From an uncultured Bacteroidales bacterium (GTDB lineage: Bacteria > Bacteroidota > Bacteroidia > Bacteroidales > UBA932): a stretch of DNA of 64,000 nt. How positions within the stretch are numbered: the first letter of the stretch is position 1; every line of letters starts with the position of its first letter. Of this stretch, positions 33,542 through 61,605 are shown piece by piece. The notes under the pieces were generated by a model. It was not told the DNA's origin. It searched no databases and saw nothing but the letters and a program-made list of their open reading frames with translations. Location: positions 62,001 to 126,000 of the forward strand of contig CALVDR010000002.1 in the NCBI GenBank assembly GCA_944326365.1, written 5' to 3'. Made by a program: the position numbers and the translations under genes.

Positions 33542-33575
33542 AAATCTGTATAAACGAATTTAACAGATTTTGCCT

Positions 33576-36500: not shown

Positions 36501-36620
36501 GCTTTCCAGGCTTCTAACCTGTTCACCCTTACGCGCTACAAGGAGTCCGACCCTGAATCCGGTTCGCTCGTAGGTGCGCAGCAGCCTATCTATACCATAA
36601 GCCTGAGTCTGTCATTCTAA
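33576..36620 (+). CDS. SusC/RagA-like TonB-dependent receptor of the M16-ChaN operon
   Basis: A complete 1014-residue outer-membrane importer starting MEFLRTIAVFMAV, with a signal peptide ending MASAQ. A CarboxypepD_reg-like domain (AGRVTDIWDEPLAGANVWV) precedes the plug (EGAVVTGKQNINDLDIRSKSGV, IRGNSSFREGDAANEPLFVLDG, ACALYGTKASNGVIEITSVRG). The TonB-side and plug motifs are diverged from the other two SusC proteins of the window. The barrel ends YTISLSLSF. susD follows 7 nt later. With an M16 protease and a ChaN-like protein in the same operon, peptides or a protein-bound cofactor such as haem are the likely cargo (inference). Confidence 0.93.
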   Translation: MEFLRTIAVFMAVIVSVMASAQGGNPRILAGRVTDIWDEPLAGANVWVRGDTGTGTSTDINGYFSIELPARNDILIEVSFLGMKSQTISYTGQKEVTVILEEDANMMEGAVVTGKQNINDLDIRSKSGVISTVDVKRLQDKPVVDMSVALQGSAPGLVVTNRGDLGTKPEIRIRGNSSFREGDAANEPLFVLDGQVISSDAFMTLNPLDIADIKILKDAVACALYGTKASNGVIEITSVRGTAGEALVTYNFNAGITTRGRRGVLMMDTDEKLELERRLRNPSAPGYLYSEEYIRETNPGAANIDELVAAGQAKLDELRKTNTDWFKELLRNDFYQRHNLSVRGGNSKTSYYASANYSYQGGQIPGNDVSRFTGRISLDQAVGQIGYVSVSVNGGYSKANSPNSSEYSPTSLIYELNPYESKTSGELWSYPNRTYDDLFYQYEKVSTEKRFGATASINLQPLKGLDLDAVVGLDMVLSESQDFTPSTSYSEQQSGAPEIERGRLGRAKNVMTNITYNIRATWNRVFGKHDITLGANTDYYMDDVDNMSITGYGVGQLNSAAAINQSIEGSRKVSTSNLKEKTAQVGIGVLGGYSFDGTYDVFGTYKADASSILPKDKRWNAAWAVGAGWNVKSYFQDWNPISALRFKASYGRTASLAGISPSLAVATFQYLEDSYGDRRLLDLMSLYNDSLKPEQTVSTEAGVSIGFWNRVSLDVGWYNRITEDALLDVPIPASNGFTTMKRNIGVLSNSGIEAAVSATLLDMENTRLNLRFSVAYNENKVLDLYDGDKLYTSEYTLVPDYEVGKAYDIIYGPISNGIDPMTGFPTFRKADGSEIPASGKLEREDMVALGHGVPPFSGTINLSFTYRNLEFDADFYYVLGGIKAYAFSYVRDVDDANKNAVRGQVENMWFKKGDQDKIYNSPYTETASLENLTLYPNSRTVGSSDYLRLSMLSLRYRFPQRLLQKAGNFFKYGNIAFQASNLFTLTRYKESDPESGSLVGAQQPIYTISLSLSF

Positions 36621-36627
36621 ACGGAAG

Positions 36628-38010: not shown

Positions 38011-38054
38011 ATTCGGAATAATTTCAGAAAAATCATTTATAAACGGATAAAGAC

Positions 38055-42094: not shown

Positions 42095-42107
42095 ACGGAT
42101 ATTTCAG

Positions 42108-42980
42108 ATGAAAAAGATTGTATTTATGATAATATTGGCGGTCACGACCGCCAATATTGCCGTACAGGCACAGGACAAGCCGGCTTATACCGTATTTGCC
42201 GGTGACGGCAAGCCGTCGGATTACGGGCGTATGCTGGAGGCCCTTTCAGAGGCTGACGTGATTTTCATCGGGGAGACGCACAACTGTCCCATAGCGCACT
42301 GGATAGAGTTTGAACTGACGCGGGACTTATACGGAAAGCATTCTGACGGGCTGGTCCTGGGGGCAGAGATGTTCGAGACCGATGACCAGCTTCTGGTGGA
42401 CGAGTATGTGACAGGGGTCATTTCTTCAGACAAGTTCGAAAGTGAAGCCAAGTTGTGGGACAATTACTATACGGACTATTATCCTCTGCTTTCTTTCGCC
42501 AGGGAGAAAGGGCTGAAATTCGTGGCTACGAATGTGCCGCGGCGTTATGCTTCATATGTGAAGGACCATGGCCTGGAGGCTCTGGAGAATCTGTCAGACG
42601 GGGCCAAAGCGCTGATGGCGCCGCTTCCGATAGATTTCGAGGCCTCGGAGGAGGATGAGGCGATGTTCGGCTTCATGAAGATGATCAGCGGTTCTGACGG
42701 GAAGAAGTCATATTTCGCCGAGGCCCAGGCTATCAAGGATGCCACCATGGCCTGGTCGGTAGCACGGAACATGGACCGCAGGTTCATACATTACAACGGG
42801 AACTTCCATTCGGATTTCCATGGCGGGATCATTCCGTATTTCAATAAGTATTGCCCCGGAAAGTCAGTCATGACCGTTTGCTGTGTGCGACAGGACGATA
42901 TCAGTGTTCTCGGGGAGGAGAATCTGGGCAGGGCCGATTTTATCGTCTGCGTTCCTGTGGACATGACCATGAGTTATTAG
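42108..42980 (+). CDS. ChaN-like (Cofac_haem_bdg) protein, periplasmic
   Basis: A 290-residue protein with a non-lipid signal peptide (ILAVTTANIAVQAQ). The hallmark of the ChaN/TIKI-TraB-like fold is IGETHNCPIAHWIEFEL (Glu56, His58, His64), and a second motif near the end is YNGNFHSDFHGG. VLGAEMFETDDQ and FVATNVPRRYASYV are further family features. ChaN from Campylobacter binds haem, while relatives such as TIKI are metalloproteases, so the role may be haem or metal binding or proteolysis. It lies 13 nt after the M16 gene and is last in the operon. A second ChaN-like gene is at 52960-53883. Confidence 0.85.
   Translation: MKKIVFMIILAVTTANIAVQAQDKPAYTVFAGDGKPSDYGRMLEALSEADVIFIGETHNCPIAHWIEFELTRDLYGKHSDGLVLGAEMFETDDQLLVDEYVTGVISSDKFESEAKLWDNYYTDYYPLLSFAREKGLKFVATNVPRRYASYVKDHGLEALENLSDGAKALMAPLPIDFEASEEDEAMFGFMKMISGSDGKKSYFAEAQAIKDATMAWSVARNMDRRFIHYNGNFHSDFHGGIIPYFNKYCPGKSVMTVCCVRQDDISVLGEENLGRADFIVCVPVDMTMSY
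42131..42158. repeat. 13-bp-arm palindrome in the ChaN-like signal-peptide codons
   Basis: AATATTGGCGGTC and GACCGCCAATATT flank a 2-nt centre, 23 nt after the start codon. It is one of the longest palindromes in the window and would form a strong mRNA hairpin near the start of translation. Confidence 0.92.
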
Positions 42981-47012: not shown

Positions 47013-47087
47013 GGTCCCATAGCTCAGTTGGTTAGTAGCACCTGACTCATAATCAGGGGGTCACAGGTTCAAGCCCTGTTGGGACCA
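47013..47087 (+). tRNA. tRNA with CAT anticodon (Met, or Ile2)
   Basis: The acceptor GGTCCCA/TGGGACC, anticodon stem CCTGA/TCAGG with loop CTCATAA (CAT at 47048-47050) and T-arm ACAGG-TTCAAGC-CCTGT are complete. Discriminator A is at 47087; CCA is not encoded. The D-arm reads GCTC...GTAGC where GAGC is usual, so there is one extra T and the tRNA is 75 nt without CCA. The loop alone cannot separate elongator Met from lysidine-modified Ile2. An initiator is unlikely because the stem lacks the GGG/CCC pairs. Confidence 0.9.
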
Positions 47088-47117
47088 CGGAAACGGCCAC
47101 AGACGGCCTTTATGATG

Positions 47118-47150
47118 AAGCACTTACATGAAAATGCAGGTGCTTTTTTC
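47118..47150 (+). terminator. Terminator after the tRNA
   Basis: AAGCACTTACAT pairs imperfectly with ATGCAGGTGCTT around a GAAA loop, followed by a run of T. It lies 30 nt after the tRNA. Confidence 0.8.
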
Positions 47151-47320
47151 GTATCTAACAGTGTCTCTTAACGCACTGACGGTCTGCTTTGACAGGTTTG
47201 AGACGGATTCATGTAAACCGAGATATAAAGAAACAGCATTCTTATTGCCATTGCAAAATATATTTCCAAGGCTAATGAACAAATTACTTGGTAATTTATC
47301 ATTAATTTGAATTCTTTCCG

Positions 47321-47328
47321 TATCTTTG
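47321..47328 (+). promoter_or_regulatory. -7 box of the AbiE-type operon
   Basis: TATCTTTG lies 33 nt upstream of the ATG at 47362 and overlaps the start of a longer open frame (47326), so the ATG at 47362 is the likely start. No TTG is well placed at -33. The preceding 47151-47320 is AT-rich and holds no gene I can support. Confidence 0.6.
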
Positions 47329-47361
47329 CATTTGAAAAATCGTCAAAATTTCAAAGGTGAT

Positions 47362-47970
47362 ATGACAAATGAATATTCTATAGATAGTACTACTCTCAAG
47401 CAACGTATAGAAACGATGCCTGAAGATTGTATCCTGTTTCGTTCAGACTTCCCTGAATATCACACTGAATTTGTTGGTAGTATTTTGACTGAATTGACAA
47501 ATGAAGGTACACTTGTTAAAATTGCACATGGAATATATACCAAGCCAAGAAAAAGTCGATTCGGTATTGTACTTCCTTCGGTCGATAAAGTTGTACAGGC
47601 AATTGCAGTCCGAGATAACGCAAAAGTGTTACCATCAGGCATGACTGCATTGAATTTATTAGGGCTATCGACTCAAGTACCGATGAATTACACATTCCTG
47701 ACTACTGGAAGTGAAAGAACAATAATTATATCAAATAGGAAAGTAGTATTAAAACGAGGTGTCCCCAAAAACTTCTGTTATAGAACTCGTCTTATTTCAC
47801 TACTTGTTCAAGCGCTTAAGGCTCTGAAAAAGGAGAATATAGGAGAAGGTGAATTGAATATAATTCGACAATTGGTATCTAAGGAAACAGATAGGGAGAC
47901 TTTAATCAAAGATGTAGATATGATGCCTGCATGGATGAAACGAATTATAAAACCAATGCTAACCGCATAA
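47362..47970 (+). CDS. DUF6088/AbiEi-like antitoxin of a type IV toxin-antitoxin pair
   Basis: A 202-residue protein. The N-terminal ~80 residues form a winged-helix domain (LKQRIETMPEDCILFRSDF, then VGSILTELTNEGTLVKIAHGIYTKP). The rest resembles the AbiEi/DUF6088 antitoxin core (VLPSGMTALNLLGLSTQVPMNYTFLTTGSERTIIISNRKVVLKRGVPKNF). Members of this family repress their own operon and neutralise the paired nucleotidyltransferase toxin. The toxin gene follows after 14 nt. The gene is clearly more AT-rich than the ribosomal-protein genes next door, which suggests horizontal transfer. Confidence 0.85.
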   Translation: MTNEYSIDSTTLKQRIETMPEDCILFRSDFPEYHTEFVGSILTELTNEGTLVKIAHGIYTKPRKSRFGIVLPSVDKVVQAIAVRDNAKVLPSGMTALNLLGLSTQVPMNYTFLTTGSERTIIISNRKVVLKRGVPKNFCYRTRLISLLVQALKALKKENIGEGELNIIRQLVSKETDRETLIKDVDMMPAWMKRIIKPMLTA

Positions 47971-47984
47971 AAGGAACTTAAATT

Positions 47985-49010
47985 ATGGGAAAACTGTGGT
48001 TAAACAATGAGATAGTGGACCGTTTAGCAATGTTACAGCAGACGGAGGTTGGACATCCTGGCGTTAATCAGGTAGCTATAGAAAAGGACTGGTGGGTAAC
48101 AGTTACGCTGAAGGTATTATTCCAAACAGATTGCCGTGATTCTTTGATATTCAAAGGCGGAACATCGTTGTCAAAAGGTTTTAATATCATAGAGCGTTTC
48201 TCTGAAGACATTGATTTGGCAATCAATCATTCGTTCTTTGGTATTGATGGAACAAGTAAAAGTCAGCGGGAGAAATTACGCAAAAAGGCACGAGCATATA
48301 TTCACGAGACCCTTTCTTCACAATTAGATGCCCGTTTGAAAGAAATGGGAGTTTCTGGTTACAGTATAGAGAATGTATCTCAAGAACAAGATAAAAATGG
48401 AGAATGGAGACTAATAGATTCGGACAAAGATCCTAGTGTAATTCTATTGCACTACCCGTCAATTCTTGAAGATTCAATAAATTATATTCCTCCTCGTGTA
48501 AAGATAGAAATCAGTTGCCTTTCAATGGATGAGCCAACAGAGATACGACACATAAGTTCTTTGATAGGCGATAGTTTTGATGGCGAAGATGCTGATGCTG
48601 AAAGTTTTGTCAGGACTGTAGTTCCGACTCGTACATTCCTTGAGAAGCTGTTTCTTTTGGCGGAAGAATTCCAAAAAGAAAAACCACGGAGCGTACGAAT
48701 GTCACGACATCTGTATGATTTGGAAAAGTTGATGGATACAGAATATGGAGAAGAAGCTTTGTCGAATCGAAAACTTTATGATGCCATTGTTCAACATCGT
48801 AAAACTTATAATGCTTTGAAGTATGTAAACTATGATTTACATGCCCCATCAACCATCAACTTTATGATACCGGAATCGGCTATAGAAGCATGGCGAGATG
48901 ATTATGCCGATATGAGGCGTTTCTTTATTTATGGCAAATCCTTAGAGTTTGATGCGCTTATGCAGAAAATGGCAGAGCTGCATGAAAGAGTTAGAGCTAT
49001 AAAAATTTAG
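47985..49010 (+). CDS. AbiEii-like nucleotidyltransferase toxin
   Basis: A 341-residue protein of the AbiEii/DUF1814 family. The nucleotidyltransferase signature is FKGGTSLSKGFNIIERFSEDIDLAI near residues 57-82, with the GGTSLSK motif and the acidic pair in EDIDLA. PRVKIEISCLS and TRTFLEKLFLLAEEFQKEKPRSVRMSRHLYDLEKLM follow, as in the family. Such toxins modify tRNA or other RNA with nucleotides and block growth, which can also stop phage spread. It is 14 nt downstream of its presumed antitoxin. AT-rich, like the rest of the island. Confidence 0.88.
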   Translation: MGKLWLNNEIVDRLAMLQQTEVGHPGVNQVAIEKDWWVTVTLKVLFQTDCRDSLIFKGGTSLSKGFNIIERFSEDIDLAINHSFFGIDGTSKSQREKLRKKARAYIHETLSSQLDARLKEMGVSGYSIENVSQEQDKNGEWRLIDSDKDPSVILLHYPSILEDSINYIPPRVKIEISCLSMDEPTEIRHISSLIGDSFDGEDADAESFVRTVVPTRTFLEKLFLLAEEFQKEKPRSVRMSRHLYDLEKLMDTEYGEEALSNRKLYDAIVQHRKTYNALKYVNYDLHAPSTINFMIPESAIEAWRDDYADMRRFFIYGKSLEFDALMQKMAELHERVRAIKI

Positions 49011-49055
49011 TTTTAAGAAACTGTTGAGAAAATAAAATTTACAATATATAAAAAT

Positions 49056-49286
49056 ATGTATATTTCTCATATAAAAATAAAAGGATTCCGCAATTTTAAA
49101 GATTCGGACATCGAATTTAATGATGGCCTCAATGTTCTAATAGGTCATAACAATGCTGGAAAAACAAACTTACTGAAGGCATTACAATTGGTAATAGAGC
49201 CACATTATAGATACAGGAGAGGAAGAAGATTCAAAGGGCTTTGTTGCTGTTTGAAACGGAGGACAAGATACCTCATCATTATATAA
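49056..49286 (+). pseudogene. N-terminal fragment of a RecF/OLD-like AAA ATPase
   Basis: The frame begins MYISHIKIKGFRNFKDSDIEFNDGLNVLIGHNNAGKTNLLKALQLVIEP, a typical SMC/RecF-like start with Walker A GHNNAGKTN. After about residue 50 (near 49207) similarity stops, and the rest reads through sequence belonging, in another frame, to a HigB-like toxin. The remaining ~400 residues expected for such ATPases are missing. A deletion or recombination joined the two genes. Proteins of this type often belong to defence systems. Confidence 0.75.
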
Positions 49287-49477
49287 AGTTCATTCGGGAC
49301 GGGATTTATGAGTTCAGAGTAAACTATGGCAACAATGAGTTCCGGCTGTTCTTTACATACGACGGAGATACGATAGTGATTTTGTTCAACTGTTTCAAGA
49401 AAAAGACACAGAAAACCCCGAAAAGCGAGATAGACAAGGCTGTGAAACTAAAGAATGAATATTATGAAAGCAAATGA
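49211..49477 (+). pseudogene. HigB/Gp49-like RelE-family toxin lacking its N-terminus
   Basis: From 49211 the frame reads IQERKKIQRALLLFETEDK, then HHYIKFIRDGIYEFRVNYGN, ending in LFNCFKKKTQKTPKSEID and further helix. This is the C-terminal ~88 residues of a phage-Gp49-like HigB toxin (family length about 110). The first ~25 residues and their ATG are gone at the junction with the ATPase fragment; only a TTG at 49241 remains as start. The key KFIRDGIYEFRV and KKTQKTPK segments are intact, so some activity is conceivable. Its 3' end overlaps the HigA-like gene. Confidence 0.75.
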
Positions 49478-49757
49478 CATTTACGATGTAAGTGCAGAAC
49501 TTGAACAGGAGTTCGGGGCAAAAGGTACACCACAGAGGGAAGCAGCGATAAACCATGCGTGGGAGGAGTACAATGCCCAGATTCTTTTGGATGCAAGAAA
49601 AAATGCAGGACTTACACAGGCAGAACTTGCACAGCGCATCGGAGCGGACAAAGGCTATATTTCCAGAGTAGAACGAGGTTTGACAATCCCCACTGTTGCA
49701 ACACTCTACAAGATAGCGGCAGCAATGGGAATGACAGTGGAACTTCGCCCGATATAA
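49455..49757 (+). CDS. HigA-like XRE-family antitoxin
   Basis: A 100-residue protein (97 if started at 49464). The helix-turn-helix is LLDARKNAGLTQAELAQRIGADKGYISRVERGLTIPTVATLYKIAAAMGM. Its N-terminus (YDVSAELEQEFGAKGTPQREAAINHAWEEYNAQ) is typical of antitoxins paired with Gp49-like toxins. It overlaps the end of the truncated toxin, which is the usual order. With the toxin broken it may be an orphan that still acts as an autorepressor, or it may be in decay. Confidence 0.85.
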   Translation: MNIMKANDIYDVSAELEQEFGAKGTPQREAAINHAWEEYNAQILLDARKNAGLTQAELAQRIGADKGYISRVERGLTIPTVATLYKIAAAMGMTVELRPI

Positions 49758-49830
49758 TGTTTTGTAGGGCAATTAAGACAATTCAATTTATTGATTTACA
49801 ATTATATTACTTTATGTTTAACCCGACTTT

Positions 49831-52035
49831 TCAACACCTCATGCGCCTGATTACGATGATGCAGCCGGCTGCAATAAGAAGAGCCGTCAGCACCCATTTG
49901 AAAATCAGGGACACGATTTCCGCATCGGACGGAGACAGCGCTATATTGTTGTCGACAGGAGCAGGACGCCGCACATCTACCGGATAGCGTGCATCCGACA
50001 GCCAGTTGAAGATGCCTTTGCAGAAAAACGAATTGATGGAGGAAAGATTTTTCCTCGACACTGTCATCTCCATGTTCCCGAGACAGTCGGCATCGCCGAG
50101 TACTATGATTCTCTGCTCTTTACCGTTCACATCGCGCGACAAAGCCAGGGCAAGGCTCCGGGTGCCGTCAGGAGTCAGCAAAAGCGGCACTGCCTCCCAT
50201 TCCGGAGACATGACATAGTCCAAGGCCGTACATCCCGGCATGGTCACGGCATATCCCGGAGGGAACATGTACGACAGAGCCGGACCATAAAAAGAAACGA
50301 CGGCAGGCACTAACTCCGGAGCATAATCCGTATCCTCGCAGAGAATTTCACCGGGTATGACACTCACGTCCATATACTCTAACAAAGCGGCCACATTCTT
50401 CTCGCCTCCAGGCTCTATTGCGACAAGCATGTTGCCGCCACGGTCCAAATGACTGAAAACATAATCCATATCAGCCCCTCCGAGTTCCGACTCGGGATCA
50501 GCCACGACCAGAATATCGGACACGGCGAGAGAATTCTGCTGCCGTGGGTCGACGGTAAAGATGTCGAAACCATTATTCACGAGAGCATTGCGGCCGGCCT
50601 TCGAAGTGGAAAATCCGGCATATCCTTCATCTGAAATACTGTAGACATCCCGCTCTCCATGCCCGGTCATGACCCCGAGCGTTATCGGCGGCTCAAGGAG
50701 CCGTCTGACAGCCGCGGATATCTCCTGCTCTTCCGGGATTCGCGTGAAGTCATCGAACATTCTCAGGAAAGTCTGCTTCCCGCCGCTGCTTTCCAGCAGC
50801 TTGACGACGGTATTGTTCTCCGGAACAAGATCTACCCTGGCCCTTATCTCCTCGGGCGTGAGCACCTTTCGCCATGGGATACCGAATCCCTTGGCGAACT
50901 TCTGTGCCAGTTCCAATACAGGCATTGCACCTTCGGTGCCATAATCCTCGTTCGCATACGGCTCGTCATAAAAATAGACGTATTCCATGTTTATGTCCGG
51001 CTTGAACCTCATGAACTGCTTGTAGCGCTTGATATCGTCATTTATGGACGACGGCGCTCCCAACCACGCGCTGTAATCGCTGAGGTTTACGTATGTCGTG
51101 ATATCGAGAGGGCCTTCGAGCCTTTCTATCAGCTCCCGGCTCGTATCGGTAATGGTATTGTCGTCATTGCGTGTAGCATCATAATACACGGTCAGCCAAG
51201 GATTCGACGTCAGCACGCCTACAATCAGGACTATGACCGTGCTTCCTACGTATTTGGCCGCACACAGCCATTTATTCCTGTCTCTTCTGTACTGGAGCAG
51301 AAAAACGCTGAATGACAGGAACAGGCCGATCACAAGGATGAAATATGCCACATCCTCGGATGATACGAGACCCTCGATCAGGGCATCCGCACGTCCGGAA
51401 ATGGAAGCCCAGTAAGTCGCAGGCCTGAGGAATTCCACATTCTGTCCCAAGGAGCCGAGCTGCTCCAGGAACGAGAACGCGCCGAGTGTCAAAAGCGCGG
51501 CCACTATCTGATACCCGGTGAGCGCCGACATGAAGAGACCTATCGCCGAATAGGCGCACAAAGTCAGATACACCCCGCACAGCCCGCTTATTATCAGACC
51601 GAAATCGATGTTGCCCACCGTAAAGGCTGCAAATATTACCCCTGGGAGGAGCACCGCAGTCAGAATCGCGGAAAATATGGCCATTGACCTGAATTTCCCG
51701 AAAATTATCTGGAACGGCGTCACAGGAGAAGAATACAGGAGCTTGATGGAGCCGCTGCTGATTTCCTTGCTCATCAGCCCCATCGTTACTATCGGCATAT
51801 AAAGATAGAGATAGTTCAGGACCGAAGGGAACAGTCCTCTTATTCCTGAAAAAAGCTCTTTCGATATGTTCGGTACCATCCCGTACATATCCTGGTCGTT
51901 CGCTATGCCCAACAGATTCGACGTGAAATTAGAATATGCCTGAAAACTGAAAAGCACAATTACGAGCCAGGCCACCGGAGAAAAAAACAGCTGGGCGGTT
52001 TCGGCCCGGGTTATAGCTTTAATCTGTCTTATCAT
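49831..52035 (-). CDS. GldF-GldG fusion: ABC permease joined to a GldG-like auxiliary domain
   Basis: A 734-residue membrane protein. Residues 1-280 are an ABC-2 permease with six or so membrane segments (TAQLFFSPVAWLVIVLFSF, MGLMSKEISSGSIKLLYSSPVTPFQIIFGK). Residues 290-690 form a periplasmic ABC_transp_aux/GldG-like domain (PLDITTYVNLSDYSAW, LGVMTGHGERDVYS, LVVADPESELGG). A last membrane helix (WVLTALLIAAGCIIVI) ends the protein. In gliding bacteria GldF and GldG are separate. It overlaps the ATPase gene by 4 nt. The substrate is unknown; export or assembly at the envelope is expected. It is last in the TonB-receptor operon. Confidence 0.85.
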   Translation of the reverse strand: MIRQIKAITRAETAQLFFSPVAWLVIVLFSFQAYSNFTSNLLGIANDQDMYGMVPNISKELFSGIRGLFPSVLNYLYLYMPIVTMGLMSKEISSGSIKLLYSSPVTPFQIIFGKFRSMAIFSAILTAVLLPGVIFAAFTVGNIDFGLIISGLCGVYLTLCAYSAIGLFMSALTGYQIVAALLTLGAFSFLEQLGSLGQNVEFLRPATYWASISGRADALIEGLVSSEDVAYFILVIGLFLSFSVFLLQYRRDRNKWLCAAKYVGSTVIVLIVGVLTSNPWLTVYYDATRNDDNTITDTSRELIERLEGPLDITTYVNLSDYSAWLGAPSSINDDIKRYKQFMRFKPDINMEYVYFYDEPYANEDYGTEGAMPVLELAQKFAKGFGIPWRKVLTPEEIRARVDLVPENNTVVKLLESSGGKQTFLRMFDDFTRIPEEQEISAAVRRLLEPPITLGVMTGHGERDVYSISDEGYAGFSTSKAGRNALVNNGFDIFTVDPRQQNSLAVSDILVVADPESELGGADMDYVFSHLDRGGNMLVAIEPGGEKNVAALLEYMDVSVIPGEILCEDTDYAPELVPAVVSFYGPALSYMFPPGYAVTMPGCTALDYVMSPEWEAVPLLLTPDGTRSLALALSRDVNGKEQRIIVLGDADCLGNMEMTVSRKNLSSINSFFCKGIFNWLSDARYPVDVRRPAPVDNNIALSPSDAEIVSLIFKWVLTALLIAAGCIIVIRRMRC

Positions 52036-52970
52036 ATAGCAGGACTGTTTGAAAGATATTCGAAAATGTCATCGGCGGAAGGCGTTTCCTTCATGATTTC
52101 GTGCAGCATCCATCCTTCTTCTACCGATGCTCTGACCAGATTTTCGCAGACGGTGTCGGAATCTCCGGAAAAAGATATTCTCACGGTATCGTGCCTGTCC
52201 GGCAATATTTCCGATCCTGTGACACCAGGAATCCGGACGAGACGCTCGTGCGACGGGAGAGCGGCCCCCGTAAGCAGCACGGACGTCGGCTTGATGATAC
52301 TGTTGAACGTCTCTATCGACCCGTCGAAAACGGTCTGCCCGTGAGCTATCATGATTATCTGCCTGCAGCACATCTGCACCTCATGCAGGATATGCGTGGA
52401 AAGAAGCACCATGCAGTTCGAGGATATCTCCTCTATCAGTTTCCTGATTTCGATGATCTGGGTAGGGTCCAGACCGTTGGTCGGCTCATCCAAAACGATG
52501 AACGACGGAGTATGGATGATGGCCTGGGCGATTCCGACCCGCTGCTGGTATCCTCCCGACAGGTTTTTTATAAGCCGTTTGCGGAAATGCGTTATCCCGC
52601 ATTTCTCCATGGCTCGCTCCACGGCCCGACGTTCATCCTTCACCTCCCGCAGACGCGCAGCGTATCGCAGATATTCTTCGATGCTCAGATCCGGAAGCAG
52701 CGGCGGCTTCTGCGGCAGGAATCCCAACCTCTGCTTCGCTTCTTCCGGAGAAGAGGCTATCGTATACCCGTTTATGCTGACGGAGCCGGATGTAGGAGTA
52801 AGCACTCCGCATATAATATTCATAAGCGTAGACTTCCCTGCACCGTTCGCGCCGAGCAGTCCTATCGTATTATGCCCGGAAAGTTCGAGGCAGACATCGT
52901 CCAAAGCCTTTTGCGTGCCGTAGCAATGCGTGATATGGTCTATCTTTATCTCGATATCCTCAGTCTGCAT
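52032..52970 (-). CDS. GldA-like ABC transporter ATP-binding protein
   Basis: A 312-residue ATPase with Walker A GANGAGKST, signature LSGGYQQRVGIAQAI, Walker B FIVLDEPTNGLDP and the H-loop LLSTHILHEV. It also has a ~90-residue C-terminal extension (after FDGSIETFN). It pairs with the GldF-GldG fusion encoded immediately downstream (4-nt overlap) and overlaps the ChaN-like gene upstream by 11 nt, so all three are probably translated together. It would energise the permease. Confidence 0.93.
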   Translation of the reverse strand: MQTEDIEIKIDHITHCYGTQKALDDVCLELSGHNTIGLLGANGAGKSTLMNIICGVLTPTSGSVSINGYTIASSPEEAKQRLGFLPQKPPLLPDLSIEEYLRYAARLREVKDERRAVERAMEKCGITHFRKRLIKNLSGGYQQRVGIAQAIIHTPSFIVLDEPTNGLDPTQIIEIRKLIEEISSNCMVLLSTHILHEVQMCCRQIIMIAHGQTVFDGSIETFNSIIKPTSVLLTGAALPSHERLVRIPGVTGSEILPDRHDTVRISFSGDSDTVCENLVRASVEEGWMLHEIMKETPSADDIFEYLSNSPAI

Positions 52971-53883
52971 AAGTCCTTGTCATTGAGAGTGGAACAACCA
53001 CGACATAGTCCGCACGCCCCTTTTCTATCTTCGCTTTCGCAGGGTCCTCCGCTTCCTCGACGGACACGGTGGAAATTTTTGTCCCCGGAGCATATTTTCT
53101 GATATAATACGCTATTGCAGAATGATATGCAGAATGGAGTTCCCCCTGAAAATGGAAGAAAGTCTGGTCATCCTCACGGTTTTCAGTGATGAAATATGCC
53201 ATGGTCGCATCTTTCAACGCCTGGGCATCCACGAGATTCCGCACATCGCTCTTTTTGGCAGGCATGCCGCCCATATTCTTAAAGAAATCGGCCACATACT
53301 CATAAAGCCGGTCTTCATAATCCACCTCTATAGGAAGCGGAGCCATATAAGAATAGGCTGCCGTATCGAGCGAATCCAGAATGCCCAACCCCATTTTCGA
53401 AACCATATTGGCATACTTGCGGGGTACGTTCGTGGCGATGAACGGAATCCTGTTCCCGGCGGCGAACTCCAATACCGGCTTATAATCCGTATCGAAATTC
53501 GGCCACAGTCTCGAGTTAGCCACATAGGTATCCATATCCATCAGGGAATCGAGCACGAATTCGTCCAACGTCAGCTGATTGTCGCACTCCCACATCTCGG
53601 CGCCGATTACGAGCCCGTCGCCTTTCAAATCATAAAGATCCTTCGCGATATTGAGTTCCATCCAGTGCGAAATCGGATCATTGTGCATTTCTCCGAAAAG
53701 GATGACATCCGATCTTGAAATATCCTGCATCATCTTTTCGTACGAAACCGGCGTTCCGTTACCGTTATAAATCACGAAAGCGTCAAGTCCGGTCATACCG
53801 GATGCGTTGCTGCAGGATAAAAACGCCCCTGCGGACAACAATGTAGCCAAGACGGCTGCCGCCGCCGAAAAACCTTTGCTCAT
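52960..53883 (-). CDS. ChaN-like (Cofac_haem_bdg) lipoprotein
   Basis: A 307-residue lipoprotein (lipobox FLSC, Cys24). It shares with the other ChaN-like protein of the window FGEMHNDPISHWMELN (Glu65, His67, His73), GLVIGAEMWECDNQLTLDEFV and, near the end, FQGELHSAYHSAIAYY. FIATNVPRKYANMV also matches. This fold binds haem in Campylobacter ChaN and is related to TIKI/TraB metalloproteases. It is fourth in a TonB-receptor operon, between DUF6850 and the ABC ATPase. That two separate TonB-importer operons here each contain a ChaN-like protein argues for a shared task. Confidence 0.86.
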   Translation of the reverse strand: MSKGFSAAAAVLATLLSAGAFLSCSNASGMTGLDAFVIYNGNGTPVSYEKMMQDISRSDVILFGEMHNDPISHWMELNIAKDLYDLKGDGLVIGAEMWECDNQLTLDEFVLDSLMDMDTYVANSRLWPNFDTDYKPVLEFAAGNRIPFIATNVPRKYANMVSKMGLGILDSLDTAAYSYMAPLPIEVDYEDRLYEYVADFFKNMGGMPAKKSDVRNLVDAQALKDATMAYFITENREDDQTFFHFQGELHSAYHSAIAYYIRKYAPGTKISTVSVEEAEDPAKAKIEKGRADYVVVVPLSMTRTYAD

Positions 53884-53885
53884 AA

Positions 53886-55415
53886 TCAGAAAAAAATACT
53901 TATGGATAATTGTGCTGTGTTGAAATTCCGTTTTGAGACGAGACTCATGTCTCTCGAATATTTGGCGCCTACGGCAATGATGTTGTTCTTCCCTGTCGGG
54001 ATATCGACATCGATGCCGGCAGAAAAGCCGGCAATGTCTTCATCATACCATTCGCTCAATGGGATGCCTATGTATTCCGTATAAATATTTCCGGTATTTG
54101 CGGCAGCCCCGGGGCTGTGGGAAACAGAAAGCCCGGTCACGTAGCTGCCGGCAGCGGATATCCCCGCATATACGCGTCCTATGCTGAAACCGGTCTGCAC
54201 TTTCAGGAACGCATCAGCCGCAGAATGTCCGAACCGGTAATTGTAGTTTTTGTCCTGTCTGTTCTCCGACAGATATCCTGCTCCGGCCATTACCGATTCG
54301 AGGACCGGCATTCCGGGCCTCCACTCAAGGGAAACATCGGCCGTCAGAGCATTGTAGTTATAATTCCGGATATACACCGAGGAAGAGTTGTTCCATGATT
54401 TTCCGGAACCTGTCGTCATACCGGCATTGCCGCGCAGATGCAGGGAGGATCTGCCGAGAAAAAGAGATTCGGAGAAAGTAACCTGATGCTTCATGTAGCG
54501 GTAATCGGTCCAGCGCTGCTGCCTCTTGGCAGACTGGATACCCTGCTGATACCATCCGTCGTTTCCGGAACAGAAATCGTACGCCACGGAAAACTCGTTC
54601 CTGTCGTTCTTCTGCAGCCACTGTGCAAACGCCCCGGGAGCATTTTCGATCCAAGCCATATTGTTCAGCAAATCGGACAGATATGTTCCGAGACCGTTTA
54701 TCAGATAAATGGTAAAATCAGGGCCGCTCGAGTAAATCGTACTGAATCCGGGCTTCTCCTTGGCATGCAGCCAGCCCGCTCCGAGACTGAAGACATGGCC
54801 TGAAGGCAGGCTGCAGGAAGCCGCTATTCTCAGATCGATGTTGAGCGTAGTCTGGGCATTCCTCACATCGTTCTTGCGGAAAGACATATCCCCGGTATAG
54901 ACCGCTGAAGCCCCTGCAGACCAGCGTGTGCCGAACTTTCTCGCTGCTGCGGCCGTCAGTCCGTACTTCTGGATATTCCATTTCGTCCCAGGATTCTTGC
55001 AGAAATAGAAAGACGGGGAGCCATTGTTCCTGAGACGGTATGAAAGATTGGCGCGGACGCTGTCTGCCTGCCCGTTTTCATAGACGAAACTGCCGCTGAA
55101 CACCCATTTGTTGTCCGGAAACCGGACAATGGATTCGGTATACACACGTCCCGTCAGCAGGCCGTCGCAAGTCTGCGGATGATGCAGTTTCCCGTCTTCG
55201 TAGTCGCCTTCGAGACTGATTTCCGCATATGTCGGATACTCCCACCATGTCAGCATGGACGGGTTATCCCCGTAAACATAACGGTACTGTGTCCCGAAAA
55301 ACTCCCTTTCAGCCCTGTCCGGAACAGACAAGGTATCCGTATCCCGCATCCCCGCAGCATGCAGGGATACGGAAAGCAGACTGAAAAGCAATATGATTCT
55401 ATATGAATTCATCAA
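53886..55415 (-). CDS. DUF6850-type outer-membrane beta-barrel protein
   Basis: A 509-residue protein with a signal peptide (IILLFSLLSVSLHAAG). The body is rich in alternating amphipathic strands with many Tyr, Trp and Phe and ends AQLSISIFF, with the terminal Phe of outer-membrane barrels. The region EFFGTQYRYVYGDNPSMLTWWEYPTYAEISLEGDYEDGKL near 38-75 and the overall layout fit DUF6850. It overlaps the DUF4876 gene by 4 nt and ends 2 nt before the ChaN-like gene. Function is unknown. It may form a second pore or scaffold for the TonB receptor of the operon. Confidence 0.75.
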   Translation of the reverse strand: MMNSYRIILLFSLLSVSLHAAGMRDTDTLSVPDRAEREFFGTQYRYVYGDNPSMLTWWEYPTYAEISLEGDYEDGKLHHPQTCDGLLTGRVYTESIVRFPDNKWVFSGSFVYENGQADSVRANLSYRLRNNGSPSFYFCKNPGTKWNIQKYGLTAAAARKFGTRWSAGASAVYTGDMSFRKNDVRNAQTTLNIDLRIAASCSLPSGHVFSLGAGWLHAKEKPGFSTIYSSGPDFTIYLINGLGTYLSDLLNNMAWIENAPGAFAQWLQKNDRNEFSVAYDFCSGNDGWYQQGIQSAKRQQRWTDYRYMKHQVTFSESLFLGRSSLHLRGNAGMTTGSGKSWNNSSSVYIRNYNYNALTADVSLEWRPGMPVLESVMAGAGYLSENRQDKNYNYRFGHSAADAFLKVQTGFSIGRVYAGISAAGSYVTGLSVSHSPGAAANTGNIYTEYIGIPLSEWYDEDIAGFSAGIDVDIPTGKNNIIAVGAKYSRDMSLVSKRNFNTAQLSISIFF

Positions 55416-56743
55416 TAATTGAAACCGCCTTTCGGTGTAGGAGGGTCTATCGGCTCGAAATCGTTCGTGGTGTTGTTCGTGTCCTGGAATATGGTGCGGC
55501 CAGCCTTTGCGGAAGCCTCGGCATCCACTTTTCTGCGCTGGCTGAAATTGGTCATGGACCCGTCATCGTTAGGAATATAGCCGAAACCGATATCCACTAC
55601 GTCAGGAAGCCTCTTCCAGCGGGCGGATTCCATGTTGTTCACGAAGTCGGCGCCGTCTATTATGCAGTCTACGGGGATTTTCATGAGAGCCTGTTCATTC
55701 ACGTTGCCGTCGCGTGTATAAGTGTAAATCATGACATCTTCATCCGTAAGTTCTTCTTCCGGTTTGAATACTATCAGGGAGCCGCCACTCATGTCGAGCA
55801 AGAAATAATCATACGGATCCGCTATATAGACATTGTCCATATTCGGTACGTCCGGATTGTCAAGATCGAAGTAGTCATTTCCTGTCCGTCCCTGATCCTG
55901 AAGCCACTGCACGGCATACGTCTCCATATTAGCCACGGACAGATCTATGATATGGCTGAGCTGCGTCTGATCTACAGTCGTTTCATATTCTTCGGCGGCC
56001 CTGCGGACCTCTTCCTTGAAATTAATGGCATTAGTAGCGACCAAGAAACTTTCTCCCGGCTCCAGAAGATAATCATCGCCATCTCCAGGGATCCGGATTA
56101 CAAGACTCGCATAGACATGGTTGTGATCCAGATTCGGGTCCTCTCGCATGGAAACTGCCGGAGCGGACTCGAAATCGGCAGTGGCAGGTGTCCAGGCATC
56201 GGCAATATGGACTCCATCCAGATAGATGGCCTTGTCGCCATTGTTGTACAGTTCGAAGAACTGGTCTTTCAACATTGTCGCTGTCGCAGGATCATAGTTA
56301 TAGCTGTGCCCCGAATAAAACACCTCTTTGATTATCAGACCATAATACGGGCTGTCCAAATCAACTGTAGTTGCCGTCAAACTTACCGTAGAGTATGCGG
56401 TCAGCTGTGATTCCACCAGCACTCCGTTGTCCACACCGTTAATACTGGTACCTTCGTATGTTCCGGATACCGAAACATTATATGTTCCCGCAGTCAATTC
56501 CTCGAAAAGGGCTGTTCCCTTGTCATCGGTGGTCTGTGTGGACTGTACGCCGTCGGCAGTACTCAGGATGGATACTGTAAGTCCGGACAGCTCCATGTCA
56601 GGATATGCTTCTGGAGCTTCGACTGTTACGCTGAGAGAGCCGAGATAAGACTCGTCATCCATGTTGTCCATGCAGGACACGGACATGAATCCCGCTGCCG
56701 TCATGCAGAAAAGGATTCCGGTTAAAGAATTAAAACGTGTCAT
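55412..56743 (-). CDS. DUF4876-like surface lipoprotein
   Basis: A 443-residue lipoprotein (lipobox SVSC). A carboxypeptidase-regulatory/Ig-like domain occupies ~35-125 (GSLSVTVEAPEAYPDMELSGLTVSIL, TTDDKGTALFEELTAGTYNVSVSG). A lamin-tail-like beta domain follows (IIKEVFYSGHSY, KDQFFELYNNGDKAIYLDGVHIAD). The C-terminus DPPTPKGGFNY is conserved-looking. It overlaps the receptor gene by 4 nt and the DUF6850 gene by 4 nt. A surface capture role for the receptor's cargo is inferred from order; the family has no assigned function that I know. Confidence 0.78.
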   Translation of the reverse strand: MTRFNSLTGILFCMTAAGFMSVSCMDNMDDESYLGSLSVTVEAPEAYPDMELSGLTVSILSTADGVQSTQTTDDKGTALFEELTAGTYNVSVSGTYEGTSINGVDNGVLVESQLTAYSTVSLTATTVDLDSPYYGLIIKEVFYSGHSYNYDPATATMLKDQFFELYNNGDKAIYLDGVHIADAWTPATADFESAPAVSMREDPNLDHNHVYASLVIRIPGDGDDYLLEPGESFLVATNAINFKEEVRRAAEEYETTVDQTQLSHIIDLSVANMETYAVQWLQDQGRTGNDYFDLDNPDVPNMDNVYIADPYDYFLLDMSGGSLIVFKPEEELTDEDVMIYTYTRDGNVNEQALMKIPVDCIIDGADFVNNMESARWKRLPDVVDIGFGYIPNDDGSMTNFSQRRKVDAEASAKAGRTIFQDTNNTTNDFEPIDPPTPKGGFNY

Positions 56744-59403
56744 TTGTTGTTTGTTTTAGATGTTATGGTAAATGTCATGCTGAAACCGAAATTGATGTCG
56801 CCGTTCAGGGTCCTCCTGGAGTCTTTAAAGACGTAAGTCGGATTGTACCAAAGAAAATTGTTGGCATAGAGGCTGAACGAATGTCCGTTTCTCGTCTCTT
56901 TTCTTATTTGCATGTGGAAATTGGCATAGACAGGCTTTTTGTCCGTGATCTCCAGGACGCTCGCCTCGCGTTTCAAATCGGCGTACTGTTCTGTCTCCCT
57001 TTCCTCTACAGGTATGTCATGGTATGTCCCGTCCCCGTCATAGTAGGCTATGGGCCACAGGCTTCCTCCGACAGGCTCCACATAGTCCACGAAATTCAGT
57101 TCCGCACTGAGGGTGAAAATAAGTCTCAGTTTGGGTATCTGCTGTATGGCGGTGATGCGGCCGGAGCCGATCCTGGTGATGTACTGCGAATTCTCATATA
57201 CTCCGTAACGGGCTTTCGCATCTCCCACGACATACCTCGATAGTTCCAGTTTGTAGCCGTGGTTCTGCTGCCTCGTCCTGACATAGCTTCCCTGTATGTT
57301 GAACTCGGTATGAGTGCTTTCGATTCTGGCCGGGACCAATGTGAGTTCTATTCCGTCCGTGGTCTCCTCGATATCGTTGCTCATCACCAATTTCTCCCTC
57401 AGCAGGATATCAGTGTCGCCCTCTATCGGACTTACTTTCGGCGGTTCCCCTTCGGGAGCATCCACGACCTCATAATTTTGCTTGTAGAGCATCAGCAGTT
57501 CCGGCGAGAGAGTGATTCCGTTTTTGAGCACCTTGTGATATGCCGTCAGCCGGAGGGTCAGCCATCGTGACTCCCAGTCGATTCCGGCCTCCACGGTATT
57601 CGTATGGCTCGGCCTCAGATGCTCGTTTCTGGCTTCATACACGTAGGTACTGACGATTGCAAGCCTTTCCGCAGGGTCCGTGGCATAGTAGCTCATGTTC
57701 GTATAGTCGAAGTATGCCGGACCCGGATAGAGCTGGACCATGGCGGGAGCCTTGTAGGCAAGTCCCCAGGCGGCCCTTACAGACAGCTGGTCGAAGAATT
57801 TCAACGTTCCGGAAAGCCGCGGAGCCAGCAGATGATAGCGTCCGTTCATAAAGTCGTATCTGAGTCCGAGACGCATGTTCGTACCGACCTTTTCCGAATC
57901 GTTCCTGACCGTAGTTTCGTGATAAGCGGAAAATGTGTTGGAAGCCGGAATTTCATAGAATGTAGCGTTTCTGGCGCCTATTCCTCCGACGGAAGACACG
58001 GCATTGCCCACGATAGACCTTCCGCTGCCGAAATTCTTGTCCCATGTGTATTGCAGACCGGTCAGGAAATTGAAAGACCAGGATTTGCGGCTCATGGTCT
58101 TGTTCCAGTCGATATTGGCATTCAGGTTGACCGGAAGCCCTTTCATTATCTGTTCCTGCTTGAAAAAGATGGAGGAGTAGCCTGTAATATATGTTCCTGT
58201 CTCCAACGCTTCTATCAGAGGCAGCGGTCCGGTACCGTAATCCATATAATAGGAGTACTGGTTGTCAATACTTCCTCCGAGAGTATAGCTCAGCTTTCCG
58301 AAGCGTTTGAAATCCATGTCTCCGGTGATGCTGAGATTTATGTTCTGGTTGTTGACTTCGGTCTCGCTCGGCATTTTCTCCTCAGGCTCGAATCTCTGGC
58401 CGTTGAAGCCGAGATAAGCCTGCATGGCGACGGTATTGGTCCAGTTCAGTTTCTTATTGACGGTAGTCATCCATCTCAGACCTACCGAGGCATTCTGATA
58501 GAAATTTTTCCGCTGTACGGGACTTTCATCCGCGTACGTGTAGGAGACGTCGGTGTTCAGGACTCCGCCTTTTTTCCCGAGGTCGAATCCTTTCGAAAGT
58601 GCGACCTGATAAGAGGTCGAGTTCATGTTGGCGGAAATGCTGAGCGGAGAAAAACCGGTCTTGTTTTTTACTATAATGGTGCCGGAGGCAAGATTGCCGT
58701 ATTTGGCTGAGGCTACGCCGGTGATGACTTCGACGCTCTGTATTCCCGAGGCGGAAATGGATCTTAGGTCAATACCCCCCCCCACGGATGATCGGCTGTC
58801 GCCTATTCCTATCGTAGGATTGGACGCTTGCATGTTCGCATCATTGCTCAGAGCCATACCGTTCACGATGACGGACGTACCGAAATTGTTCGCATCGGAA
58901 ACTACTGCGGAGCGGAGGTTGGCCTGCTGCACGCTCATGAAATCGGATGCTCCCATCTTGTTTCCAGGAAGCAGGGACAGAATATCGTTCAGGTTCATAG
59001 CCTGAATCTGCTTGATGGCCTGGTCGTCGACCCGGTAGACGCTTGTGCCCTTGTTGCTGTTGACCGCAGTGGCGGTCACTACGACTTCGTCCATGTTGAG
59101 TGCCTCCGGCTGCAATGTGAATATCAGGGAATCCATATCGCTGTCGATATCAAGACAGCACTCTATCGTCCTGAAGCCCATGAACGATATGCCGATAGTG
59201 CTTCGGCCCTTGGGCAGCCGTATCGAGAAATTTCCGTCATGATCGGTGTATGTGGAAATAAAGAGGTCTTTCTGCACGACAGACACGAACTCCATCGGTC
59301 TGTCCCTGTCGTCGTATACGGTACCGGACACGGTAAATTCCTGAGCGGCAACCGACAGCGCCGTTAAAAACAGAATCAATACGGATGCGAAAAGTCTGTT
59401 CAT
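56740..59403 (-). CDS. TonB-dependent receptor of the six-gene ABC/ChaN operon
   Basis: An 887-residue outer-membrane receptor. The signal peptide ends SVAAQ. A CarboxypepD_reg-like domain (TVSGTVYDDRDRPMEFVSVV) is followed by a plug (MDEVVVTATAVNSNKGTSVYRV, VNGMALSNDANMQ, VITGVASAKYGNLASGTIIVKNKTG), then a barrel ending NGDINFGFSMTFTITSKTNNK. No SusD gene is adjacent. It is first in the operon. A G9 tract (58775-58783 on the plus strand as C9) encodes Gly208-Gly210 inside the plug, so a slip would abolish the protein. It is shorter than the SusC proteins and closer to siderophore/haem-type receptors in layout. Confidence 0.92.
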   Translation of the reverse strand: MNRLFASVLILFLTALSVAAQEFTVSGTVYDDRDRPMEFVSVVQKDLFISTYTDHDGNFSIRLPKGRSTIGISFMGFRTIECCLDIDSDMDSLIFTLQPEALNMDEVVVTATAVNSNKGTSVYRVDDQAIKQIQAMNLNDILSLLPGNKMGASDFMSVQQANLRSAVVSDANNFGTSVIVNGMALSNDANMQASNPTIGIGDSRSSVGGGIDLRSISASGIQSVEVITGVASAKYGNLASGTIIVKNKTGFSPLSISANMNSTSYQVALSKGFDLGKKGGVLNTDVSYTYADESPVQRKNFYQNASVGLRWMTTVNKKLNWTNTVAMQAYLGFNGQRFEPEEKMPSETEVNNQNINLSITGDMDFKRFGKLSYTLGGSIDNQYSYYMDYGTGPLPLIEALETGTYITGYSSIFFKQEQIMKGLPVNLNANIDWNKTMSRKSWSFNFLTGLQYTWDKNFGSGRSIVGNAVSSVGGIGARNATFYEIPASNTFSAYHETTVRNDSEKVGTNMRLGLRYDFMNGRYHLLAPRLSGTLKFFDQLSVRAAWGLAYKAPAMVQLYPGPAYFDYTNMSYYATDPAERLAIVSTYVYEARNEHLRPSHTNTVEAGIDWESRWLTLRLTAYHKVLKNGITLSPELLMLYKQNYEVVDAPEGEPPKVSPIEGDTDILLREKLVMSNDIEETTDGIELTLVPARIESTHTEFNIQGSYVRTRQQNHGYKLELSRYVVGDAKARYGVYENSQYITRIGSGRITAIQQIPKLRLIFTLSAELNFVDYVEPVGGSLWPIAYYDGDGTYHDIPVEERETEQYADLKREASVLEITDKKPVYANFHMQIRKETRNGHSFSLYANNFLWYNPTYVFKDSRRTLNGDINFGFSMTFTITSKTNNK
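58775..58783 (-). repeat. G9 homopolymer in the TonB-dependent receptor gene
   Basis: Nine consecutive G on the coding strand encode Val-Gly-Gly-Gly in the plug domain. Slippage would switch the receptor off, and possibly reduce expression of the five genes downstream. Confidence 0.95.
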
Positions 59404-59793
59404 GCTTACAGCCTTGGGGATTAAGCTATAAAATGATTATAAGTTCGTCGTAAACGACTTCCGCCTTTACGGACGGTGCTGTCTGCAACCTGTGGGGAAG
59501 TCATCATATCTACAAATATAAACTTTTATTCATAAATTGTTCAGAATTCCACCCGTATTTTTACAGAATTTTCACGGTTCTTTCATTTAAGTTTGGCGAA
59601 TGACATTCCGTTACCTGTAAATAATCAAGACCATATGCTGAAAGGAGAGTATTAGATTTATTCAAGAAATAGTTTAACGATACGCCCTCTTGCAGAAATG
59701 TAGGAGGTTTTGTCGTATAGTTTTAAGAAATATCACTATATTTACTTAGTTTGATCAAATCGGTGTTTTGCATGAATTTTATAAAAATCGTTT
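59404..59793. other. 390-nt divergent intergenic region
   Basis: It separates the TonB-receptor operon from the C69 peptidase gene. It holds the receptor -7 box (59513-59520) and a leader of about 100 nt with short stem-loops (a GTCGTTTACGAC hairpin and CTTAATCCCCAAG). For the peptidase gene I see only a weak TATATTTA at 59737-59744. No coding sequence or known riboswitch is recognisable. Confidence 0.6.
59513..59520 (-). promoter_or_regulatory. -7 box of the TonB-receptor operon
   Basis: On the minus strand TATATTTG matches the Bacteroidetes consensus. It lies about 110 nt upstream of the receptor start. No TTG is found at the -33 spacing, so an activator may be needed. Confidence 0.55.
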
Positions 59794-61605
59794 ATGAAGA
59801 TGTATAGAAAACCATCATTCTTTTTAGCATTATCCAGCAGTCTTGCATCCATGCTGCTGTGCCTGGCCGCAGCACCCGAAGCGAATGCCTGCACGAATGT
59901 CCTTATCTCCAGAGGTGCCAGCGCGGATGGCTCGTGCATGGTTTCATATGCGGCTGATTCTCATACACTTTTCGGAGAACTGTATTTCCGCCCGGCGGCC
60001 AGCCATGAAAAAGGCGAGATGCTGAAAATATACGAGTGGGACACCGGAAAATTCCTCGGCGAGATCCCACAGGTGCCGTATACTTACCAGACAGTCGGAA
60101 ACATGAACGAGCACCAGCTCATCATCGGCGAATCCACGTTCGGAGGGCGTATGGAACTCTTTGACTCCACAGGGATCATGGACTACGGTTCGCTCATCTA
60201 TACCACGCTCCAGAGAGCGAAGACCGCGCGTGAAGCCATAAACATCATAGTTGACCTGGCGAACACTTACGGCTACTATTCCAGCGGGGAATCATTCTCT
60301 ATCGCGGACAAGGATGAAGTCTGGGTCATGGACCTCATCGGGAAAGGCTACAGGGAGGAAAACGGACAGAATGCGAACAAAGGTATAGTCTGGGTGGCCA
60401 GAAGATTGCCGGACGGCTATATATGCGCCCATGCGAACCAGTCCAGAATCAGCACCTTCCCCCTTGACGACCCGGAGAACTGTCTCTATGCGCCGGATGT
60501 CATCTCCTTTGCACGAGAGATGGGCTATTTCGATGGAAAAGACGAGGACTTCAGCTTTTGTGATGCATATAATCCGCTGAATTTCGGTGCCATGCGTGGC
60601 TGCGAAGCCCGGGCCTGGTCAGCTTTCAATATCCTCTGCGACGGGCAGTTCACGTTCGAGGATGAAAACGGAAAGGAAGTGACGTGCGACTCATATGAAT
60701 ATCTCGATTATGCCATGGGGTATGACGCATCGAAGCGTTTCCCTCTCTTCGTGAAACCGTCCAGGAAAATCACCATGAAAGATGTCGCTGATGTCATGCG
60801 CGACCATTTCGAAGGCACTCCGATGGACATGACCACAGATATAGGTGCCGGAGGCAATGCACTTCCGTATCGCTGGAGACCGATGGACTTCGAATATGAA
60901 GGCCATGTTTACGTGAACGAACGTGCGATAGCCACCCAGCAGACCGGATTCTGGTTCGTGGGACAGTCACGCGGCTGGCTACCTGATGTGATAGGCGGCC
61001 TGCTATGGTTCGGTACGGACGATGCCGCCACTTCGTATCTGACTCCGATATATACCAATATAAACAAGGTGCCCGACTGCTTCGCAGAGGGCAATGGCAG
61101 TATCCTCGAATATTCCCCGACTTCGGCATTCTGGATATGCAACCGCGTGGCCAATGCCTGCTACAGAATGTACAATGTCATGGCTCCGGTAGTCATGGCG
61201 AAAGCCGATGATTTCGAGAATGCCCAGATGTCTCTCATCCCTGAAATAGACATCCAGGCCATGGCTCTGTATCAGAAGGCTCTCGACACTCCGAGAAAGC
61301 AGATAAGGCGGAATGACGAAGTGCAGAAAGTCCCAGATCCGTTTGCCGAGGTGAAAGATTTTCTGACAGACTATTCTGTCGGTACTGCTCAGGGCATGTT
61401 TGATGAATGGGTGGACCTGGAAACGTTCCTGCTGGTTAAATTCATGGACGGAAACGTCAAGGCACAGAATCCTGACGGTTCCTTCGTCACAAACGGATAT
61501 TCTGACCGCATCCCTGACGGTATCACGAACCCCGGCTATACGGACAAGTGGAAGGAAGCCGTAGTACGTGATCACGGCGATATCCTCCGTCAGCCTGAAG
61601 AATGA
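59794..61605 (+). CDS. C69-family dipeptidase-like Ntn hydrolase, secreted
   Basis: A 603-residue peptidase of the PepD-like C69 family. The signal peptide ends PEANA and is followed at once by Cys33 (CTNVLISRGASADGS), so signal cleavage would expose the N-terminal nucleophile. The family motifs GESTFGG, YGYYSSGESFSIADKDEVWVMDLIGKG and GIVWVARRLPDGYICAHANQSRI are present. It would cleave dipeptides in the periplasm. It is a single-gene unit ending at a strong terminator. The context (peptidase loci elsewhere in the window) fits growth on proteins or peptides. Confidence 0.92.
   Translation: MKMYRKPSFFLALSSSLASMLLCLAAAPEANACTNVLISRGASADGSCMVSYAADSHTLFGELYFRPAASHEKGEMLKIYEWDTGKFLGEIPQVPYTYQTVGNMNEHQLIIGESTFGGRMELFDSTGIMDYGSLIYTTLQRAKTAREAINIIVDLANTYGYYSSGESFSIADKDEVWVMDLIGKGYREENGQNANKGIVWVARRLPDGYICAHANQSRISTFPLDDPENCLYAPDVISFAREMGYFDGKDEDFSFCDAYNPLNFGAMRGCEARAWSAFNILCDGQFTFEDENGKEVTCDSYEYLDYAMGYDASKRFPLFVKPSRKITMKDVADVMRDHFEGTPMDMTTDIGAGGNALPYRWRPMDFEYEGHVYVNERAIATQQTGFWFVGQSRGWLPDVIGGLLWFGTDDAATSYLTPIYTNINKVPDCFAEGNGSILEYSPTSAFWICNRVANACYRMYNVMAPVVMAKADDFENAQMSLIPEIDIQAMALYQKALDTPRKQIRRNDEVQKVPDPFAEVKDFLTDYSVGTAQGMFDEWVDLETFLLVKFMDGNVKAQNPDGSFVTNGYSDRIPDGITNPGYTDKWKEAVVRDHGDILRQPEE

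Follow-up and report, generated by a model that had tools for sequence, protein, structure and literature searches.

The window, by which we mean the whole 64,000-nucleotide stretch of DNA analysed here, carries six open reading frames on the minus strand, running from 59403 to 49831 as the initial annotation had them (Table 1). Spacing between successive genes is −4, −4 (or −1), +2, −11 and −4 nt, where the second value depends on whether the DUF6850 gene starts at TTG 55415 (4-nt overlap) or ATG 55412 (1-nt overlap), both equally possible. GC content is even across the operon (0.51, window 0.50). The open reading frames, gaps and Pfam assignments confirmed the spacing and the six families first proposed, and the claim that the genes form one unit is borne out by conserved gene order in other lineages. 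On balance, we think that the six packed genes make up one TonB-dependent acquisition system in the outer membrane.

Table 1. Genes of the operon and a candidate promoter element upstream of it, in window positions.
Feature	Position	Strand	Assignment
TonB-dependent receptor, 887 aa	56740..59403	-	Plug and barrel, carboxypeptidase-regulatory-like N-terminal domain
DUF4876 lipoprotein, 443 aa	55412..56743	-	PF16215; fold of BT_1938
DUF6850 outer-membrane beta-barrel (predicted), 509 aa from TTG 55415	53886..55415	-	PF21012; C-terminal Phe
ChaN/TIKI-superfamily lipoprotein, 307 aa	52960..53883	-	PF04187, motifs, 2g5g similarity
ABC ATPase, distant GldA-like, 312 aa	52032..52970	-	PF00005
Fused ABC-2 permease, periplasmic GIFT/ABC_transp_aux domain and C-terminal TM (GldFG), 734 aa	49831..52035	-	PF12679 and PF09822
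TATATTTG	59513..59520	-	Candidate -7 element, fits TAnnTTTG by eye; about 110 nt upstream of receptor ATG

Relatives were sought with an alignment of the fused permease/GIFT protein (GldFG), which gave at least 532 relatives, and 80 loci were retrieved. The initial annotation had suggested checking whether the families co-occur in other genomes, and they do: all six genes stand in the same order in Puteibacter caeruleilacunae (receptor 892 aa, GldFG 42% identical), and the uncultured Bacteroidales contig CALUQC010000120.1 has ChaN, ATPase and GldFG (78% identical) behind a DUF6850 gene that the contig end truncates. As the order recurs in full in Puteibacter and for its last four genes in a second lineage, the arrangement is beyond chance. 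Of the 295 genomes surveyed in the order, the window's own is the sole one with all six genes as a unit; four others have full-length GldFG relatives, never beside DUF4876 or DUF6850. Wider samples, with 395 genomes drawn from the phylum and 393 from the order, held no close relative of the receptor except in one genome (G283), and the same receptor is absent from two congeneric genomes, G008 and G757. The unit recurs in few, scattered genomes and is therefore conserved, but rare and patchy.

The outer-membrane core and its inner modules

The receptor scores above the Pfam cut-offs for the plug (PF07715, 35.3 bits, cut-off 23.9) and barrel (PF00593, 62.7, cut-off 27), as expected of a TonB-dependent receptor. 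A SusC/RagA identity was rejected, with TIGR04056 at 80.9 against a cut-off of 368 and no SusD in the operon. The DUF4876 protein (PF16215, 106 bits, cut-off 27.9) has an AlphaFold2 model with the fold of PDB 4q1z/BT_1938, and its N-terminal Ig-like half gave generic structure matches only. Its lipobox (...SVSC-MDNMDDE) shows an acidic run after the Cys, a trait of surface-exposed Bacteroidota lipoproteins, and the protein is expected to reach the surface by the ordinary surface-lipoprotein route on its own signal. The DUF6850 protein (PF21012, 167 bits, cut-off 27) was modelled by AlphaFold2 as a long-stranded beta-barrel (pLDDT 84), which supports its assignment as an outer-membrane beta-barrel. 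Its structural neighbours are outer-membrane barrels generally (FadL/TodX, CymA, TonB receptors), and because TM-scores were low we claim no specific structural relative; a PDB sequence search and a literature search on DUF6850 found nothing.

DUF4876 and DUF6850 are a fixed pair, usually next to a TonB receptor. A same-strand DUF4876 gene lies within 3 kb in 59 of the 61 DUF6850 matches, every genome with DUF6850 also has DUF4876 (46/46, Fisher p = 6e-52), and 30 of the 33 DUF4876/DUF6850 loci have a TonB receptor no more than 7 kb away. The window operon has this importer core, with the pair adjacent and the receptor beside it.

The inner modules beside this core swap between loci. A DUF4857 ABC occurs in 12 of the 33 loci, seven of these with PepSY, a layout that corresponds by annotation to BT3625-33 of Bacteroides thetaiotaomicron. 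HEAT-repeat proteins of about 740 aa lie beside the core in five loci, M16, S46 or Fer4-HMA genes in a few and ChaN in three. One to three tandem copies of the HEAT-repeat protein were observed after DUF6850 (L052 1635-8255, also L049, L054, L055 and L058). Elsewhere (L053, L062, L077 and others, e.g. L077 5447-8151) an ATPase, an unclassified 223-aa permease and DUF4857 adjoin DUF4876-DUF6850, apparently an ABC module without earlier description. Homology of the DUF4857 protein or the 223-aa permease to the fused protein of the window was rejected (hhalign probability 0.4 and 1.9%, respectively), and by sequence comparison the two kinds of ABC would be analogous at most.

The window's own genome has a second such core, which starts at window position 63488 and runs past the right end (L004 4489-17677, equal to C2:125488-138676). 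Its order is receptor, DUF4876, DUF6850, M16, Fer4_5/HMA membrane protein and S46 peptidase, and the same cassette is found in congeneric G008 (L051). In G283, receptor, DUF4876, DUF6850 and ChaN are followed by M16 peptidases (three genes) in the place where the window has its ABC.

The ChaN assignment (Cofac_haem_bdg) rests on three observations. PF04187 gave 169 bits against a cut-off of 27.7; the motifs GExH...PxxHW, GxEMxE, NxPRxYA and HxxGxxHS, including the GExH and GxxH signatures, are kept in the window protein and its operon relatives; and a five-sequence profile matched the solved C. jejuni-type lipoprotein 2g5g (E 2e-11), where a PDB sequence search with the window protein alone gave no useful match. 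The lipobox (LSC-SNASG) has no acidic run, and the protein is predicted to face the periplasm. ChaN homologues can be hydrolase-like, as in the TIKI superfamily. A second ChaN gene (window 42108-42980) ends a SusC-SusD-DUF4929-M16-ChaN cassette (33570-42980); its M16 and ChaN genes are joined in G008 as a single 1252-aa open reading frame (L175 7584-11342). Through this fusion ChaN is tied to the processing of peptides or proteins, and a peptidase-linked alternative stays alive. At another locus (L178 8230-11558), a ChaN gene directly follows a true gldF-gldG pair that scores above the NCBIfam cut-offs.

An ABC family beside TonB-dependent importers

The ATPase motifs are intact (Walker A GANGAGKS, LSGG, Walker B FIVLDEP, H-switch STH), and the GIFT domain of the fused protein matches IFT52 structures (E 1e-6). 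The initial annotation had linked these proteins to the gliding machinery. Gliding Bacteroidota do combine an ATPase, an ABC-2 permease and a GIFT domain in GldA-GldF-GldG, as in the window; however, their GldF and GldG are separate genes, whereas in the window the permease and GIFT parts are fused, and the window proteins lie in an import context and fall below all curated Gld cut-offs (GldA model TIGR03522 240.8 against 402.6, GldF model TIGR03518 73.8 against 288.5, no match to the GldG model TIGR03521). The gldF-gldG pair of the L178 locus, our positive control, passed both the GldF and GldG cut-offs, and a GldA/GldF/GldG identity was rejected. A search of the window's genome for GldL had no match, and its control was likewise without a match anywhere.

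By full-length alignment, adjoining ATPase and TonB importer, the window pair belongs instead with the ATPase/GldFG proteins of SusCD loci. In Flavobacterium, Pedobacter, Chitinophaga, Butyricimonas and Bacteroides the same ATPase and fused permease/GIFT protein stand by a TonB importer, in the order SusCD-(DUF4843-PKD_2)-ATPase-GldFG. The outer-membrane part is SusC/SusD in those loci and TonB-DUF4876-DUF6850 in the window; they often carry M16 or MutS-like genes, and no ChaN was seen in the loci examined.

A same-strand TonB, SusC or SusD gene lies within 9 kb in 74 of the 87 loci of the ABC family, and several of the exceptions stop at a contig edge. This importer location runs against the proposed gliding association. 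Chance expectation is roughly 14–28%, from SusC counts of about 23–103 per 2.6–3.9 Mb with unscored candidates included. Taking p = 0.28, the binomial p is < 1e-27, a value that overstates independence because many of the loci are near relatives and the SusC expectation is an estimate. M16 peptidases were found in 28 of the 87 loci and more than one GldFG copy in 27. A tree built from 119 GldFG copies groups the three DUF4876-linked members in a single clade (SH-aLRT 99) within a mostly SusCD-linked family, and the ABC was therefore recruited once.

These ABC proteins are a family separate from GldA/F/G, with at least 532 loci and tied to TonB importers, which they accompany across the phylum. 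A literature search for ATPase/GldFG with TonB importers found no description within a limited collection, and one on ‘Gldg family protein’ returned nothing related. Directly downstream of ATPase-GldFG at several loci, among them L088, L100 and L122 (L122 12318-14977), stand MutS_III/MutS_V proteins of about 445 aa, paired or fused, an odd partner for a transporter. Two loci have tandem GldFG genes behind one ATPase (L043 7971-12498, L046 10152-14579), whose products possibly form heterodimers.

Probable substrate and mode of action

Published regulation of related loci, together with the ChaN protein, points to a substrate of the iron or haem type. Three clusters, BT3625-33, PG1019-22 and BT_1938-39, share with the window operon a TonB receptor and DUF4876 in one cluster; BT_1938 is the solved DUF4876 fold (4q1z), and BT3625-33 also has an ABC ATPase. 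By RNA-seq, BT3625-33 is up 37–128-fold in low iron and 14–19-fold in colitis, and PG1019-22 of P. gingivalis is up 21–214-fold under low iron (PMC10434189). A P. gingivalis DUF4876 gene has a log2 fold change of −5.4 in a haemin-availability comparison (PMC10470040). We read the substrate as iron or haem mainly because the DUF4876 loci of these relatives are induced by low iron. The inner part of BT3625-33 is PepSY, ATPase, a hypothetical protein and DUF4857, where the window has ChaN, a GldA-like ATPase and the GldF/GIFT fusion; the low-iron loci thus carry a different ABC and no ChaN, and transferring ‘iron’ to the window operon assumes a shared core function. Given the conserved order, and given that related DUF4876 loci are induced by low iron, the haem, metal or metallophore theme of the initial annotation appears plausible.

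The division of labour that we infer among the operon proteins would begin at the cell surface, where the DUF4876 lipoprotein would capture substrate for transfer to the TonB receptor, with the DUF6850 barrel alongside. The receptor would import the ligand, most likely iron-bearing (haem, an iron chelate or a fragment of a haem or iron protein), and ChaN would take or process it in the periplasm. The ATPase and GldF/GIFT fusion may spend ATP to move the large periplasmic domain. Rather than driving gliding, this movement would most likely help to unload, process or clear imported material, by mechanotransmission or export. MacB, LptB2FG and NosDFY, ABC systems whose action depends on movement of their periplasmic parts, serve as an analogy for the ABC part; we know of no ABC-2 system with a GIFT domain that has a demonstrated role in import.

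Overall, we favour, by a modest degree of confidence, an iron/haem-type TonB importer that has once recruited a SusCD-associated ABC module. More tentatively, the ATPase and permease/GIFT protein could be a widespread, unrecognised accessory motor of Bacteroidota TonB importers, an inner-membrane machine driven by ATP that unloads or processes cargo in the periplasm, moved here once from SusCD onto an importer of the iron/haem type. TonB importers bring in many nutrients in this phylum, and cargo release and periplasmic processing are largely a gap. If the proposal is true, at least 532 loci coupling an ATP-driven, periplasm-reaching ABC to importers would represent a missing step open to testing, with a concrete phenotype to score in the iron-linked variant.

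Capture by a surface lipoprotein beside a TonB receptor is a principle that the window shares with XusABC (xenosiderophore), HmuYR and BtuB-BtuG, although the lipoprotein families differ (DUF4374, HmuY and BtuG). To our knowledge, neither a second barrel nor a GIFT-type ABC has been described for these systems. XusABC also includes an inner-membrane PepSY protein (PMC13142918). FusABC and YddB/PqqL, as protease-associated import systems, couple TonB import to processing in the periplasm (PMC6793856), and M16 peptidases occur in the sister cassettes of the window operon.

After the Fus/PqqL example, the operon could be an importer of peptides or small proteins, with cargo possibly bearing metal or haem, ChaN acting as a metal-dependent hydrolase or binder of proteolysis products, and the ABC clearing or importing those products. 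The M16-ChaN fusion in G008 and the hydrolase-like ChaN homologues point to peptides or proteins as much as to haem. M16 peptidases also stand beside the same ABC family in 28/87 loci, M16 and S46 follow the paralogous TonB-DUF4876-DUF6850 core in the window genome and G008, three M16 genes follow ChaN in G283, and DUF4953/DUF5117 metalloproteases lie upstream in L096. However, the window operon itself holds no peptidase, M16 or other, and DUF4876 core loci elsewhere are iron-regulated, and we regard this alternative as possible but rather doubtful. It is not exclusive of the favoured iron/haem importer, and the two are compatible should the imported cargo be an iron protein.

An assembly role, in which the ABC/GIFT module inserts or matures the surface lipoprotein/receptor complex of the operon, would fit the presence of the module in loci rich in surface lipoproteins (SusD, DUF4843, PKD_2, DUF4876), but it is unlikely, as most TonB-DUF4876-DUF6850 and most SusCD loci do without the module and the general Lol/surface-lipoprotein pathway should suffice. 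The initial annotation had raised the possibility that the ABC exports a capture protein which the receptor then takes back. This idea is not supported: DUF4876 has its own lipoprotein signal and needs no ABC, and most genomes with the core are without this ABC. In its small-molecule form, with a metallophore or peptide exported and then recovered, the idea draws on the occurrence of importer and exporter in one operon and on ABC-2 type permeases being exporters. It seems slightly less probable still than assembly, since neither the window operon nor the Puteibacter copy has a biosynthetic gene and the SusCD importers found with the ABC family are many and take diverse ligands. Finally, gliding or type 9 secretion machinery is highly improbable despite the distant GldA/GldF/GIFT similarity, given scores far under the curated Gld cut-offs that the L178 pair passes and the location beside importers.

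Flanking sequence

The motif TATATTTG is a weak match to the Bacteroidota -7 element TAnnTTTG and could be due to chance; scans for promoters and terminators gave results close to chance or were built for the wrong promoter type. Control by a riboswitch or other Rfam RNA was rejected, as the sole Rfam match in 42–64 kb was a tRNA, and the lack of a riboswitch at the operon speaks against B12 control. A defence role was likewise rejected, the PADLOC matches to the operon ATPase being generic ATPase matches. Adjoining the 3′ end of the operon (window 47013-49800) are a tRNA-Met and then a stretch of low GC content (about 0.37) that holds AbiEi/AbiEii toxin-antitoxin genes, a truncated AAA open reading frame and a small HTH gene; no repeat of the tRNA-Met end was found within the window. 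On the other side, a peptidase family C69 gene (window 59794-61605) is divergent from the operon and lies between the two DUF4876 cassettes.
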